NCBI GenBank assembly: GCA_003838145.1
Contig: QYZZ01000118.1
Span: forward strand, 1 to 64,000
Source: Tindallia sp. MSAO_Bac2
GTDB taxonomy: Bacteria; Bacillota; Clostridia; Peptostreptococcales; Tindalliaceae
Length of the DNA: 64,000 nt
Direction: 5' to 3'
The notes under the pieces are model-generated. The model saw only the letters and a list, made by a program, of their open reading frames with translations, was not told where the DNA came from and ran no database searches. A program made the position numbers and the translations under genes. Below, piece by piece: positions 1 through 62,817 of the stretch (the first letter of the stretch is position 1; the number at the start of each line of letters is the position of its first letter).

Positions 1-461
1 CGGAAGCTCCTGAGTTCTATCCTCTGGATAACGCATTCTAACCTTCCGATAGAGTTGAAACTCTACCAGAAGCTAAGAATCCTGTTAACGTGGAAGCCTA
101 TGACCGTGCTGACAGAAAACCCGGTGCATGGACGGCAGTTCACAGCGAGGCCCAGAAGAGGAGCTGAACCAGTGCTTTAGCAGACAATGGTTAAGCGATT
201 TCAATCAAAAGAGCGATCCGAGGGGAAGATCAGGAACCCCTGCTGTCTGAGCGATTCCCAGCGAGTTCAGGGGTTCCCTTCCACGAGGAGAGCTCGATTC
301 AATCTTTTAGCCGGGCTCAGCCCGGCGTTGCTTAACCGTCTGTCTAAGCATCTGGTCAGCCCTCGACCCATTCGGGCGGGTAGACGTAAACAACGGTCAG
401 GCACAGAGGTTTTCTCAGCTAAGGGAATGAGCTTCCGGATAGAACCAGGAGCAAAGAAGGC
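1..461 (+). ncRNA. Candidate structured RNA element, copy 1
   Basis: No protein is supported here. The stretch is homologous to 7433-7911 and partly to 55274-55502 (reversed). Helices that can be read directly: P1, 6-12 plus 14-22 with 437-452 (16 pairs, one bulged A); P2, CTG-AGAAAACC (109-121) with GGTTTTCTCAG (408-418); a long arm in which TGCTT, CAGAC and GGTTAAGC (173-196) pair with 330-350. Inside the arm are hairpins 224-242/268-282, 284-287/293-296 and 310-316/320-326. An extra segment of about 70 nt near 21-90, with its own hairpin TAGAGT..ACTCTA, is absent from copy 2. The 5' end is cut by the window edge. Structured RNA is inferred; a mobile element remnant is the main alternative. 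Confidence 0.6.
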
Positions 462-532
462 AGCAAAAGGATCTGGTCAGCCCTCGGCCGCTAATAAATT
501 CAGTTACTAACAAATAAAGGAGATGTTGTACA
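462..532 (+). other. Leader between RNA element and cbiX
   Basis: Short non-coding stretch. It carries a second copy of the phrase ATCTGGTCAGCCCTCG, also seen at 350-365, so a piece of the upstream element is duplicated directly. It ends in a good ribosome binding site (AAAGGAGATG) for cbiX. No cobalamin riboswitch is visible. Confidence 0.5.
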
Positions 533-4667: not shown

Positions 4668-4956
4668 TGAATTAAGGATTAAGAATGAAGAATTAAAGAT
4701 CAAAATAACAAAAAAATTTTAACCGCGAAGGACGCGAAGGGCACGAAGAAGAGATTAAGAGATTCTAAGTGTAACCTAATTTATTTGAATTATTTTTGTT
4801 ACCTATGTCCTAATCCGTTCAGCTCTTGTGTAACATGGTTACTTGACCTTAATTATCAATTGTCAATTATCCATTATCAATTGCTTTTATGTTTTTTAAT
4901 TCATAATTCATAATTCATAATTCATAATTCAAAACTTCCCCAAGGGTTGTGATCTA
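4668..4956. repeat. Repeat-mosaic spacer cbiC-cbiD (Rep1, Rep2, Rep3)
   Basis: A spacer of 289 bp with no gene. It holds one Rep1 unit (4721-4750), a run of Rep2 AT-rich units (about 4850-4884) and Rep3 direct repeats of AATTCATAATTC (about 4900-4932). The AT-rich part ends just before the weak AAGGG ribosome binding site of cbiD. Confidence 0.7.
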
Positions 4957-6763: not shown

Positions 6764-7319
6764 AGCCTTCATCCGTGGAGAAGTCCCCATGACCAAACAG
6801 GAAATACGCTGGATAGCACTGGCTATGCTGCAAATTCAGCCGGGCATGACAGCTTTGGATCTGGGTTGCGGCAGCGGATCCCTGACGGTGGAAATGGCCA
6901 GAATGACATCACCGGAGAAAGTTTATGCCATGGAGCATAAAAAGGAAGCTCTGGAAGTAACCCGCAGGAATCTGGAGCGGTTCCGGCTCACCGGCGTTAA
7001 CCTGATGGAAGTCCGGGCGGAGGACCGGTTGCAACAGCTTCCGGCACTGGACCGGGTATTTATCGGCGGCTCCGGCGGTGCACTGGAAGACATCCTATGC
7101 CAACTGACTCCCAAACTGAAGCCGGACAGTCGTATCGTTATGACAGCTGTAACCCTGGAAACCATTGCTCAGGCCAAGGTCTTACTGCAGCAGGAGCCGT
7201 TCGCTAACCTGACCATTTTGCAAACCGGTATTACCAGGTATGTCCGCAGAGTCGGATACAACATGGCCCAGGCGGAGAATCCGGTGATGATTTTTGGAGC
7301 GGAAACTAACTTTCTTTAA
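6690..7319 (+). CDS. cbiT: Cobalt-precorrin-6B C15-methyltransferase (decarboxylating)
   Basis: CbiT is a class I Rossmann methyltransferase that methylates C15 and removes the C12 acetate carboxyl. The conserved N-terminal block PGLPDEAFIRGEVPMTKQEIR is followed by the SAM site LDLGCGSGSLT (about residues 55-65) and the acidic residue in AMEHKKEAL. The start is uncertain. The frame has no ATG before the conserved block, so TTG at 6690 inside cbiE is given. A start at the ATG of PMTK (6789) would remove the conserved part. The stop codon is part of a Rep1 repeat. Confidence 0.88.
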   Translation: MTLESNNNCNIEKWLSIPSPGLPDEAFIRGEVPMTKQEIRWIALAMLQIQPGMTALDLGCGSGSLTVEMARMTSPEKVYAMEHKKEALEVTRRNLERFRLTGVNLMEVRAEDRLQQLPALDRVFIGGSGGALEDILCQLTPKLKPDSRIVMTAVTLETIAQAKVLLQQEPFANLTILQTGITRYVRRVGYNMAQAENPVMIFGAETNFL

Positions 7320-7432
7320 CCGCGAAGGACGCAAAGGGGCGCGAAGAAAACATAAAAGCAGTTAATAGGTCATAAGTTATAAGTTATAAGTTATAAGTTG
7401 AAAGTTAAAGTTCAAAAGTTTATAGAAACCGT
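7320..7432. repeat. Rep1 and Rep7 repeats after cbiT
   Basis: A Rep1 unit begins in the cbiT stop codon (about 7316-7350). A tandem run of the heptamer TTATAAG (Rep7) fills about 7370-7400. No gene is visible. The next element is the second copy of the structured RNA. Confidence 0.65.
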
Positions 7433-7911
7433 TGTGCCGACTGAAGCTCCTGAGTTCTACAAGGAAGCCTATGACCGTGCTGTCAGAAAACCCGGTGCAT
7501 GGACGGCAGTTCACAGCGAGGGCCAGAAGAGGAGCTGAACCAGTGCTTTAGCAGACAATGGTTAAGCGATTTCAGTCAAAAGAGCGAGCCGAGGGGAAGA
7601 TCAGGAACCCCTGCTGTTTGAGCGGTTCCCAGCGAGTTCAGGGGTTCCCTTCCACGAGGAGAGCTCGATTCAATCTTTTAGCCGGGTTCAGCCCGGCGAT
7701 GCTTAACCGTCTGTCAAAGCATCTGGTCAGCCCTCGGCCACTCCGAATGTATGTTCTGAGAACTGAATTATAATTGTTTTTCAATTTTTTGAAGTTAATT
7801 CGTAATTCATAATTCTTAATTCTTAACTGCTTTTAAACAACGATCAGGCACGCTGGTTTTCTCAGCTAAGGGAAAGAGCTCCCGGATAGAACCAGGAGCA
7901 AAGAAGGCGCA
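7433..7911 (+). ncRNA. Candidate structured RNA element, copy 2
   Basis: Homologue of 1-461 with the complete 5' end. Helices: P0, TGTGCC (7433-7438) with GGCGCA (7906-7911, includes one U-G pair); P1, 7446-7452 plus 7454-7459 with 7887-7899; P2, AGAAAACC with GGTTTTCT; the long arm GGTTAAGC..GCTTAACC is conserved. The arm-tip hairpin has GCCGGGT..GCCCGGC where copy 1 has GCCGGGC, a change that keeps pairing as U-G on this strand only. A Rep3-like AT-rich block is inserted at about 7760-7840. It lies 40 nt before cbiL and could be part of its leader. Confidence 0.6.
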
Positions 7912-7950
7912 CCAAGCTGACCAACTGAATTATCGAAAGGAAGAAGCCGA

Positions 7951-8670
7951 ATGAAAGGAATCCTGACCGGCATCGGCGTCGGCCCCGGAGATCCGGAGTT
8001 GCTGACACTGAAAGCCGTTAATGCCATAAAGAAGGCCAAGGTGGTTTTTTATCCAACTACAAAACAGGGAGGGAAAAGTGCTGCGCTAAAAGCAGCTGAA
8101 AACTGGGTTTCACACGAAGCCCGACGCATTCCACTGCTTTCCCGTATGACTTCAGATCCGGAGGAGCGCAGGGCACAGCGGCAGCTGCAAAGCCGGCAGA
8201 TTGCCCAGGTGTTGGAGGAAGGAACGGATGCTGTGATGCTCACTCTGGGAGATGCGCTTTTATACAGTACATACAGCTACGTAATGAAAGACCTGAAAGC
8301 TAACGGATACACGGTTAAAACCATACCGGGTATTACAGCCGCCAGTGCTGCCGCCTCTCAGCTTAATACACCTCTTGCGGAAGAAGATGAAAAACTGATG
8401 ATCTGCCCCGGCTCCGATAAAAAAGAAGAGCTGATTCAGCAGCTGGATAATATGTCAGCCAACATGGCAATTCTAAAAGTGTCTGCCTGCCGGGAAACAT
8501 TGTACCAATGGCTGAAAAGCCGGGAAAAAACAGTGGAGTTTGCCCTGGCATCAAAACTGGGAAGCGAGGAGGAAGTGCTTCATCAGGATATCGAATGCCT
8601 TAAAAATCCGGATTTACCCTATATGTCTGTTGCAATATTGAAAACAAAAGAAAAATCCAAAAGAAAATAA
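7951..8670 (+). CDS. cbiL: Cobalt-factor II C20-methyltransferase
   Basis: CbiL adds the C20 methyl group that is later lost during ring contraction. The 239-residue protein carries the N-terminal GIGVGPGDPELLTLKA motif (residues 7-22) and LGDALLYSTYSY near residues 96-107, where CbiL/CobI enzymes typically read GDP(M/L)xYST. The start is supported by GAAAGGAAG. It is isolated from its neighbours by repeat-rich spacers on both sides, although all face the same way. CobI-type function with a metal-free substrate is unlikely given CbiX, CbiD and CbiG here. Confidence 0.93.
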   Translation: MKGILTGIGVGPGDPELLTLKAVNAIKKAKVVFYPTTKQGGKSAALKAAENWVSHEARRIPLLSRMTSDPEERRAQRQLQSRQIAQVLEEGTDAVMLTLGDALLYSTYSYVMKDLKANGYTVKTIPGITAASAAASQLNTPLAEEDEKLMICPGSDKKEELIQQLDNMSANMAILKVSACRETLYQWLKSREKTVEFALASKLGSEEEVLHQDIECLKNPDLPYMSVAILKTKEKSKRK

Positions 8671-8879
8671 AAAGTTAACCGCGAAGAACGCAAAGGGGCG
8701 CGAAGAAAACCTCTGAAATCCGGAATACTCTTGTGCCCTATGGGTACGGGTGCCCTATGGGTACGGGTGCCCTATGGGTACGGGTGCCCTATGGGTATTT
8801 GAACTTAATTCATAATCCATAATTCTTAATTCATAATTCTCAAGGCGCCCAGCGCGCCAAACCGAAAGGAGCAAGTAAA
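8671..8879. repeat. Repeat-mosaic spacer cbiL-cbiF with 17-bp tandem array
   Basis: Contains a Rep1 unit (8675-8709), then four tandem Rep4 copies of a 17-bp unit GTGCCCTATGGGTACGG starting at 8733, 8750, 8767 and 8784, then Rep3 units (about 8801-8840). Each Rep4 unit is a small imperfect palindrome. No gene is visible. Confidence 0.75.
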
Positions 8880-14446: not shown

Positions 14447-14770
14447 GGAAAAAGTAAAAGCTTGTGCCCGGAACGGGTACTTGTGCCCGGAACGGGTGCT
14501 TGTGCCCGGAACGGGTACCTGTGCCCTGTAGGGTATGGAAAGTGGAAAGGAAAAACATAAAAGCGTTTAACCGCGAAGAACGCAAAGGGCGCGAAGGAAA
14601 AGCATCCTGGAGGCATGGTGACTCGTGCTTTTGCCTTAATGAACTGGACCTTAATTATCCATTATCAATTGTCAATTATCAATTGCCTTAACGCATTATC
14701 AATTGCCTTTACGCTTTTCAATTCATAATTCATAATCCATAATTCATAATTCTTTAAGGGAGGTGGCTGC
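14447..14770. repeat. Repeat-mosaic spacer upstream of tmk
   Basis: A 324-bp stretch without a gene. It holds four tandem Rep4 units with a 19-bp period (starting 14464, 14483, 14502, 14521), one Rep1 unit (14567-14601), Rep2 units (about 14651-14710) and Rep3 units (about 14720-14752), ending at the AGGGAGGTGG site of tmk. Confidence 0.75.
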
Positions 14771-15415: not shown

Positions 15416-15716
15416 GTTAAAAGCCTGCACCCTATAGGGTGTTAAAAGTTAAAAGCTAAAAGCTAAAAGCATGTGCCCGGAACGGGTACCTGTGCCCGGA
15501 ACGGGTATTATCAGCCAGTCCCCTCTCCCCTGGCGGGAGAGGGTTAGGGTGAGGGGGAGAAGGAGATCCGTCCCCCATTGTGACTTTGAACTTAATTATC
15601 CATTATCAATTGTCAATTATCAATTGCCTTAACGCATTATCAATTGCTTTTATGTTTTTCAATTCATAATCCATAATTCATAATTCTTAATTACTAAAAG
15701 TGAGGAGGCTGAAGCC
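15416..15716. repeat. Repeat-mosaic spacer tmk-darA
   Basis: About 300 bp without a gene: a Rep4 variant CCTGCACCCTATAGGGTG (about 15424-15442), two 19-bp Rep4 units (about 15471-15508), a full Rep5 palindrome (15520-15558), a Rep6 remnant (about 15567-15586), Rep2 units (about 15594-15648) and Rep3 units (about 15659-15690). Confidence 0.75.
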
Positions 15717-24526: not shown

Positions 24527-24846
24527 AAAAGCAGGGAAATCAGGTAATAGAGGAACAGGTTAAAAGTTAAAGGTTAAAAGCTTGTGCCCTTTAGGGTACC
24601 TGTGCCCGGAACGGTAACTGAACCCCCTCTCCCCCGGCGGGAGAGGGTTGGGGAGAGGGGGAAAGCAGCTCCGTCCCCATTGTGCATAACGAACTTGACC
24701 TTAATTATCAATTATCAATTGCCTTAACGCATTATCAATTGCCTTTATGCATTTGACCTTAATTATCAATTATCCATTGTCAATTATCAATTGCCTTAAC
24801 GCATTATCCATTGTCAATTATCAATTGCCTTTAAAAGGGGGTTCTT
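24527..24846. repeat. Repeat-mosaic spacer metG-tatD
   Basis: A 320-bp stretch without a gene: Rep7-like start, Rep4 units (about 24583-24615), a complete Rep5 (24623-24662), a Rep6 remnant (about 24668-24686), then several Rep2 units in tandem separated by CCTTAACGC or CCTTTATGC (about 24700-24832). Confidence 0.75.
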
Positions 24847-41490: not shown

Positions 41491-41593
41491 GACAGGGTAG
41501 AAGTGCAGGTTATAGGTTATAAGTCCCCTCTCCCCTGGCGGGAGAGGGTTAGGGTGAGGGGGAAAAAAGACAACAAAGAAAGCAGGAAGCGAC
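41491..41593. repeat. Spacer yabE-rsmA with Rep7 and Rep5
   Basis: Contains a Rep7 unit (about 41503-41523) directly followed by a complete Rep5 palindrome (41524-41563). No gene is visible. Confidence 0.7.
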
Positions 41594-43625: not shown

Positions 43626-43853
43626 GAACAAGTTAAAAGCCTGCACCCTGTAGGGTGTTATGAGCCTGCACCCTATAGGGTGTTATGAGCCTGCACCCTA
43701 TAGGGTGTTAACGGGTTATAGGTTCTTAGTTCCCTCTCCCTCGACGGGAGAGGGTCAGGGTGAGGGTGAATAAAGGCACAGTAGGGACGGCAGGTCATTT
43801 ACTCCACGGTTCACGGGGAAAATGAGCTCCGTCCCTACTGTGCCTTTGCTTGC
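43626..43853. repeat. Convergent spacer with Rep4 array, Rep5 and a perfect Rep6 palindrome
   Basis: Three tandem Rep4 units of 25 bp (about 43637-43711), a Rep5 palindrome (43731-43767) and a 76-bp Rep6 element with perfect 19-bp inverted ends (43772-43790 and 43829-43847). It lies between the convergent peptidase and ABC ATPase genes and could form long hairpins that end transcription from either side. Confidence 0.8.
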
Positions 43854-53353: not shown

Positions 53354-53667
53354 TAAAGCAGTTAAATCCCTCTCCCCCGGAGGGTGAGGGGGGAAGAACC
53401 CATTTAACCACGAAGGACACAAAGGGGCACGAAGGAAAGATTAAAACCTTTTAAGCAAGTCACCACTCGCTGGTGATCTGGTAGCAAGCTGTTAGTCCTC
53501 TCTCCCCTGGTGGTAAGACAGTTAATCAGTTAAATCCCTTCATGGCCTGGTGGTAAGACAGTTAATTAGTTAAGTCCCCTCTCCCCTGGCGGGAGAGGGT
53601 TAGGGTGAGGGGGAAAAGAATTTCCCTAATCCTTAACCCCTACAATATAAGGAGGAGCAAATTAAAA
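53354..53667. repeat. Repeat-mosaic spacer glmU-prs
   Basis: A 314-bp stretch without a gene: a shortened Rep5 (53367-53394), a Rep1 unit (53403-53438), then a stretch in which CCTGGTGGTAAGACAGTTAAT occurs twice (about 53507-53575), each piece resembling half of Rep5, and a full Rep5 (53577-53613). The prs ribosome binding site AAGGAGGAGC follows. Confidence 0.7.
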
Positions 53668-55273: not shown

Positions 55274-55502
55274 CATGCCTTCCTTGCTCCTGGTTCTAAC
55301 CGGAAGCTCATTCCCTTAGCTGAGAAAACCTCTGTGCCTTGCCGTTGTTTCCGTCTACCCGCCCGAATCGCCCTCCTGGCTTAGCGGGCGGCAGTGCGAC
55401 GTCCTGTCGCACTGTACGACGCAAACTGCCGTCCATGCACCGGGTTTTCTTGCAGCACAGTCATATGCTTCCTTGAAGAACTCAGGAGCTTCAGTCGGCA
55501 TA
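55274..55502 (-). ncRNA. Candidate structured RNA element, copy 3 (compact)
   Basis: A reversed, shorter homologue of the elements at 1-461 and 7433-7911. P0: TATGCC (complement of 55497-55502) with GGCATG (complement of 55274-55279), where copy 2 has TGTGCC/GGCGCA; the three differences all preserve pairing. P1 (GCTCCTG..CAGGAGC, 55286-55292 and 55483-55489) and P2 (AGAAAACC..GGTTTTCT) are kept. The long GGTTAAGC arm is missing and is replaced by a different hairpin, CAGTGCGAC..GTCGCACTG. The core phrase AAACCCGGTGCATGGACGG is unchanged. Confidence 0.6.
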
Positions 55503-55864
55503 ATTGTTTCTACAAGCCTTTGAATTTAATTATCCATTATCAATTGTCAACTATCAATTTGCTTTTGCCCATTGTCTGCTAAAGCACTGGTTCAGCTCCT
55601 CGATCTATATGTTTTCTTCGCGCCCTTTGAGCCCTTCGTGGTTAAATGTTTTATATCTTTTAATCTTATGACTTCAATCTTTTGAACTTTCACTTATAAC
55701 TTATAACTTATTAACCTATTAACTGCTTTTTATGTTTTCTTCGCGCCCCTTTGCGTTCTTCGCGGTTAAAAGCTTTGATCTTTTAATCTTTTGACTTTAA
55801 TCACTTGAACTTTTAACTTTCAACTTTTAACTTAAACTATTAACTGCCTTTAAAGGAGTATCCC
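55503..55864. repeat. Repeat-mosaic spacer upstream of mfd with an RNA-element fragment
   Basis: Contains Rep2 units (about 55527-55562), a reversed fragment of the structured element (55568-55602, the segment GCTGAACCAGTGCTTTAGCA), two reversed Rep1 units (55615-55646 and 55736-55769), and Rep7-like TATAAC runs (about 55685-55715 and 55810-55850). No gene is visible. Confidence 0.7.
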
Positions 55865-59401: not shown

Positions 59402-59677
59402 AAACAAGGTCAAAAGATTAAAACAAAGCGATTAACCGCAAAGGACGCAAAGGGGCGCGAAGGAAAAGATTAAGTTCAAGGTCAAAAGAAGTAGCAAGTA
59501 ACCACGAAGGACACGAAGGGGCGCGAAGGAAAAGATTAAGGGAGGCACAGCCATTGTGCCTCTTGAAAAAATTACAAACTCCTATATAATGAAAAAGGAA
59601 GCACCGGGGACATGAGGCAATGGACTCTGTCCCTACTGTGTTTTAAACCACTTTGCAAATTGAAAGGAAGATTTCAG
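59402..59677. repeat. Spacer mfd-foldase with two Rep1 units and a degenerate Rep6
   Basis: Two Rep1 units in the same orientation (59431-59467 and 59498-59534) and a Rep6-like phrase ending TCCCTACTGTG (about 59599-59641). The frame of the next gene is open through this part but has no coding character. Confidence 0.65.
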
Positions 59678-60625: not shown

Positions 60626-60914
60626 AAGCAGGTTACAGGTAAAGAGGTTATAGGTAAAATTCCTTTTTTGTTGGTATGTTAGCAGTGTAATCCCCTCTCC
60701 CTTGACGGGAGAGGGTTAGGGAGAGGGTGAATCCTCCTCCAATGCTTGCCCTATTACCTATAACCTGCTCCCTTTTAACCTGCATCTAAAGGCACTGTGG
60801 GGACGTGAGGTCATTTGCTCCATGGTTTTCGGGGCAAAGGAGCTCCGTCCCCACTGTGACTTTAATAACTGCTTTTAACAACTGCTTTTAACTGATTTAC
60901 TCGTGGAGGTAACT
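60626..60914. repeat. Repeat-mosaic spacer foldase-flippase
   Basis: Rep7 units (about 60630-60660), a full Rep5 (60691-60730), further Rep7 (about 60752-60776), a Rep6 palindrome (about 60788-60863), and two short repeats AACTGCTTTTAAC before the ribosome binding site. Confidence 0.75.
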
Positions 60915-62522: not shown

Positions 62523-62817
62523 TGGAAAGGAAAGACACAAAAGCGATTAACCGCGAAGGCCGCAAAGGGCACGAAGGAAAACCGCTATAACCCGGGAATA
62601 CTTTTGGGCGCAATGGGGACGTGGCGCAATGGGGACGTGGCGCAATGGGGACGGCAGGTCATTTACTCCATGCATTTCGGGGAAAATGAGCTCCGTCCCC
62701 ATTGTTCCACCTAAACATTATCCATTATCAATCGTCAATTATCAATTGGTCTTCTTATGCCTTTCAATTCATAATCCATAATTCTTAATTCATAATTCAC
62801 AAAAAGAGGTGTTTCTC
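62523..62817. repeat. Repeat-mosaic spacer flippase-yabN
   Basis: A Rep1 unit (62546-62581), a Rep6 element whose left end GCGCAATGGGGACGTG is repeated in tandem three times (about 62609-62711), Rep2 (about 62717-62747) and Rep3 units (about 62763-62798). Confidence 0.75.

Follow-up and report, generated by a model that had tools for sequence, protein, structure and literature searches.

Probable MITE-like hairpin repeats nested in the intergenic DNA of Tindallia, with an apical hairpin recurring in at least two phyla

Tindallia is a genus of haloalkaliphilic Clostridia. The stretch of DNA analysed here (the window; 64,000 nucleotides of Tindallia sp. MSAO_Bac2) begins at base 1 of contig C116 of a genome of 2.5 Mb in 129 contigs, and two distinct hairpin repeats, type I of 224 nt and type II of 208 nt, were identified in it. 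Their neighbouring genes are cobalamin genes (cbiX, cbiA, cbiC and tetrapyrrole methylases) and pth/mfd. The features are listed below; R2 denotes a covariance model built from a 25-sequence alignment that includes no Tindallia sequence.

1..461, + strand: type I repeat, 5' end lost at the contig start; type II and a further arm (about 18-92) interrupt it
158..365, + strand: type II repeat nested in type I
233..277, + strand: conserved apical hairpin of type II (model R2: 42.3 bits, E 2e-10)
471..486, + strand: right-end remnant of type II, ATCTGGTCAGCCCTCG, after the type I repeat (466-492 matched)
7435..7908, + strand: type I repeat spanning 474 nt with its interruptions, type II and an AT-rich repeat; its ends, TGCCGACTGAAGC...CAGGAGCAAAGAAGGC, both match those of whole type I copies
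7529..7736, + strand: type II repeat (208 nt) nested in type I; 96% identity to 92-368; found alone in sister species; fold z -7.1
7604..7648, + strand: conserved apical hairpin of type II (model R2: 49.9 bits, E 7.6e-13)
55277..55500, - strand: type I repeat, whole and uninterrupted, 224 nt; of equal length in contig C59 and species G002; fold z -8.9
55569..55601, - strand: left-end remnant of type II, upstream of type I in the orientation of type I (100% over 33 nt)

A direct check confirmed the three elements reported in the first-pass annotation, together with their shared core and nested helices. Whole copies of type I, with the termini TGCCGACTGAAGC...CAGGAGCAAAGAAGGC, occur at 55277-55500(-), in contig C59 of the same genome and in species G002. 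Type II has the termini GAGGAGCTGAACC...CAGCCCTCG and occurs apart from type I in the sister species G003 and G001 (loci L034 and L031, respectively); a related type III is present in contig C18 and in G001. The first copy lacks its 5' end because the window begins at base 1 of the contig, and the copy at 55 kb is purely type I, a type II end of 33 nt lying beside it. In the first two copies of the window it is type II that sits within type I, and the opposite order, type I between type II ends, is found in contig C59. The first two copies are therefore composites of two repeats, and the arms which had been regarded as swapped between copies of a single modular RNA are nested insertions of separate repeats, at sites that are empty in sister species.

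Comparison of the orthologous sites points to mobility. The cbiT-cbiL gap measures about 630 bp here vs about 50 bp in G001 and about 30 bp in G003, and the pth-mfd gap carries type I and a type II end here, type II in G001 and no element in G003 and G004. Type I and type II are separate units, found alone and nested and absent from orthologous sites of sister species; since such sites are empty, the repeats are mobile rather than fixed regulatory RNAs, and we propose no connection with cobalamin control. Both are short, without coding capacity and dispersed in several copies per genome, their imperfect terminal repeats pair within the folds, and their insertions are polymorphic at both gaps, as expected of MITEs. 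Two further copies are situated at the ends of contigs, as expected of assembly-breaking repeats. The Tindallia copies showed no clean target duplication, and a transposase bearing the ends of either repeat was not found in this genus; its IS1182-type loci were rejected as the mobiliser, their ends being different from those of the two repeats. Type I was not detected beyond the genus, either in 297 genomes of the order or by a pattern search of GTDB genomes and viral contigs, and searches of plasmid and phage DNA gave no useful matches. In G003, the type II ends at L034 and L037 (contig C2, about 275.9-277.8 kb) are directly repeated, and each follows TTTCTATGAAAT or a closely similar sequence. 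Between them lies about 1.6 kb in a cassette-like arrangement, the genes of which appear by eye to be a nucleotidyltransferase/HEPN pair.

The predicted folds are very stable and well outside what chance would give, with -113.9 kcal/mol for 55274-55502(-) against -73.4 +/- 4.5 for shuffled sequences (z -8.9) and -98.8 kcal/mol for the insert at 7528-7735 (z -7.1). When the whole copies of type I, of which there are three, are compared, 97% of the cells are paired, and four pairs are changed on both sides vs 1.7 expected, a number reached in 26 of 500 shuffles. Type I by itself is thus weak evidence, suggestive only, for a compensated fold within the genus. Helix P0 had been read as TGTGCC/GGCGCA in the second copy and TATGCC/GGCATG in the third, with three changed pairs that all stay paired. 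The reading is correct, but only the G-C to A-U change is a both-sided one, each of the remaining two being a wobble change on one side, and in a third species (G002) the outer pairs are broken.

The evidence from the tip of type II is of a different order. The tip reads CTGTTTGAGCG-n-GCGAGTT, enclosed by a helix of any sequence, and cognate hairpins following this pattern were found in metagenome-assembled genomes of the Thermodesulfobacteriota. The motif is present in 18 of 398 Bacillota genomes (one single match for the reversed-pattern control) and in 15 of 198 genomes of the Thermodesulfobacteriota sample (three single matches for the control), with up to 43 copies per genome; a few single matches are due to chance and fall in coding sequence. 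One such chance match is that of L061 in the Diapherotrites, which reads as coding sequence and was rejected. With the spacer left free, there are 19 occurrences of the motif in G004, 12 in G297 and 11 in G299, the reversed pattern giving 0. In the viral contigs an identical 2-nt spacer is observed in 12 of 25 matches, and these are flanked by inverted arms. Seventeen positions of the apical motif are common across phyla; the search pattern itself selected for this, but its recurrence is far above that of the reversed-pattern control. The next internal loop contains GCGAA in 11 of 33 lineages, against at most 9 in shuffles. The outer arms differ completely between lineages. No recurrent neighbour, such as a nuclease gene, was noticed beside the motif in the ORF listing. 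A second hairpin, GGTTCTTTTCTTTGGGC-n-CAAAGAAAAGAAC, lies 3' of many family members in several lineages (L161, L168, L170, L143, L091 and L073).

The helix enclosing the motif is maintained by compensatory change. In an alignment of 25 sequences outside Tindallia, found by the loop motif and not by the helices, with representatives hand-picked after viewing and evident coding matches excluded, covariation is 0.807 vs 0.205 +/- 0.028 when shuffled and at most 0.335 when slid, and all ten helix pairs change on both sides across the 25 lineages. A partner swap test on 30 non-redundant flank pairs, chance matches included, is cleaner, since nothing was excluded by hand: flanks match their own partners at 6.8 of 8 positions vs 4.76 +/- 0.19 with partners swapped, the swapped value never exceeding 5.3 in 1000 trials. 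Model R2 matches the window at 7604-7648 and 233-277 with the E-values listed above, the next match having E 0.55; it also matches the type II and type III copies of Tindallia that were tested, and does not match the type I copy at 55 kb. The evidence that the fold of the type II tip is kept by compensatory changes across lineages is overwhelming, and the type II apical hairpin belongs to a strongly covarying family present in at least two phyla.

Relatives in the neighbouring genus (G004) provide a link to a known transposon family. In this genome, two IS1182-type transposase fragments end in CAGACTGCAGACAAAA and CAGACCGAAGACAAAA with a hairpin adjoining, and their best NCBIfam match is IS1182, below the full-length cut-off because the fragments are partial. 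The G004 repeats, 206-207 nt when full-length, begin with CAGACTGTAGACAAAA and have termini like the ends of these relics. The same terminator-hairpin word (at least 8 nt) lies on both sides of 16 of 18 copies vs 9 of 345 mismatched pairs, and internally deleted copies retain the duplication. In this neighbouring genus only, then, the relatives share terminal sequence with IS1182 relics and lie between two terminator copies, and their identification as IS1182-type MITEs is well supported. A strong match to a known transposon end, named in the first-pass annotation as grounds against a functional RNA, is thus provided by the sister-genus relatives but not by the Tindallia copies, for which an IS1182-type mechanism may be supposed by analogy. 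IS1272, a member of the IS1182 family, is known to enter hairpins and terminators, and reportedly deletes part of the hairpin without target duplication (PMC4923244); the duplication in G004 is therefore not the behaviour of IS1272. At L180-L208 and L122-L133 of G004 the repeats were seen to have entered intrinsic terminators, a complete terminator hairpin flanking them on each side in 16 of 18 cases, and in several copies the stems of the flanking hairpins agree and their loops differ.

Among the relatives in the Thermodesulfobacteriota, four loci of G299 (L099, L110, L116 and L119) have the ends GTAACTATTCAG...CTGAATAGTTAC with apparent direct repeats of about 8-9 nt by eye, and these resemble IS66-type ends. 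IS66 was rejected as the mobiliser of the Thermodesulfobacteriota copies, no transposase of PF03050 being found in G297-G299.

Taken together, the best explanation of the elements, with a probability of roughly 0.78, is that they form two families of MITE-like mobile hairpin repeats, small and non-autonomous, which have inserted into one another between genes. As with other MITEs, their movement would depend on a DDE transposase that acts on their ends in trans. Hairpins would serve as the insertion targets, each hairpin repeat offering a target for the next, which would explain the nesting. The apical fold could, more speculatively, be retained through recognition or processing of the folded strand, either as single-stranded DNA during replication or as a read-through transcript, because the loops would otherwise be lost. 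As the outer arms share nothing between lineages, one transposase cannot serve all of them. We tentatively suggest, with less than even confidence, that the apical hairpin marks a mobile element family, as yet uncatalogued, in at least two phyla and in phage/prophage contigs, and that a shared factor, of the host or of the element, recognises the folded strand (RNA or single-stranded DNA) whichever transposase supplies the ends.

The principal alternative is a functional structured non-coding RNA, transcribed alone or with its neighbours, in which the fold is selected and mobility is secondary. The very stable folds (z -8.9 and -7.1), the strong covariation with invariant loops, the better folding of the motif strand than of its complement in 22 of 23 lineages and a slight excess of G-U pairs over A-C mismatches in the arms (154 vs 114) are all in keeping with it. 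However, folding energies favour G-U by construction, and a strand-symmetric test is weak (p 0.017, 21 to 10, the lineages not being independent), so that neither comparison decides between RNA and DNA; presence at the sites is polymorphic. Such an RNA thus appears unlikely, and of the selection on RNA folding proposed in the first-pass annotation the compensated fold survives, weakly for type I and overwhelmingly for the type II tip, and its action as RNA is no more than putative, the strand asymmetry being weak. The complementarity could also be a by-product of palindrome correction by template switching, without selection on the fold. Long inverted repeats do undergo such correction, and in the three whole type I copies the compensated pairs (4) are not more numerous than the pairs with a broken cell; it would, however, erase unpaired loops too, yet the 17 apical positions are common across phyla and GCGAA recurs in the next internal loop, which renders this explanation quite unlikely.

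We regard as very unlikely that the repeats are targets or products of a process on single-stranded DNA, such as integron-like or HUH recombination at hairpins, rather than of a DDE transposase. Sequence-free stems with a conserved apical motif do recall sites that are read in folded form, and the tip contains GCGNAGC, which is known as a very stable DNA mini-hairpin, but the G004 repeats share the ends of DDE transposase relics and duplicate their target, and neither a recombinase nor a HUH gene is tied to the repeats. The HEARO/omega RNA and group II intron remnant suggested earlier from the general shape can practically be dismissed, as Rfam includes models of both and neither matches at the gathering threshold or at E up to 10 in a permissive scan of 7350-7960. 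At the Rfam 15 gathering threshold no family matches the window or the viral-contig relatives of the element, and nothing was found for the element at E up to 1 in one Thermodesulfobacteriota copy; a match to sRNA-Xcc1 in one phage contig is a feature separate from the hairpin family.

Among known systems, the IS1182-family MITEs (IS1272/TnSha1, PMC4923244) resemble the sister-genus relatives, which share IS1182-type relic ends and sit at terminator hairpins, but differ in that IS1272 deletes part of the hairpin without target duplication, whereas the G004 terminator is duplicated, and in that the Tindallia copies showed no connection with IS1182. REP/BIME elements are likewise intergenic hairpins and targets of insertion sequences, but type I and type II are several times longer and carry a different motif. 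The attC sites of integrons also combine free-sequence stems with conserved unpaired features, but neither an attC consensus nor an integrase is tied to the repeats. For BOX and RUP elements we know of no cross-phylum fold. BOX and RUP of Streptococcus pneumoniae (PMC3049150) are, like type I and type II, small, intergenic, multicopy, hairpin-forming, modular and gene-free, but they differ in sequence and host range.

Hairpin repeats are usually taken to be lineage-specific, whereas here one fold recurs across phyla in many copies. It combines an invariant apical motif with freely varying stems, is covered by no Rfam family, and no description of the apical-hairpin family was found in the open-access literature searched by sequence and concept. 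Should RNA or single-stranded DNA be the form in which the fold is read, it would constitute a mechanism common to many unexplained intergenic repeats, and the terminator-duplicating insertion of the sister genus provides a concrete system for hairpin-targeted transposition.

Other repeats also populate the intergenic regions of the window. AT-rich repeats (e.g. TTATCCATTATCAATTGTCAATTATCAATTG) crowd them at 4841-4887, 14643-14689, 15584-15630, 24693-24831, 55518-55564, 62706-62752 and elsewhere, and within the AT-rich portion of the element at 7.4 kb, 34 nt match a plasmid of Chroococcidiopsis. The repeat AACCGCGAAGGACGCAAAGGGGCGCGAAG occurs in many intergenic regions on both strands (7311-7358, 8670-8717, 14562-14609, 59427-59540 and 62542-62589), and a hairpin repeat, CCCTCTCCCCTGGCGGGAGAGGGTTAGGGTGAGGG, lies at 15517-15569, 24621-24673, 41522-41574 and 53573-53625. 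A 77-nt repeat with inverted ends (GGCACAGTAGGGACGGCAGGTCATTTACTCC...), present at 43771-43847, 60787-60863 and 62635-62711, is a further MITE-like candidate.
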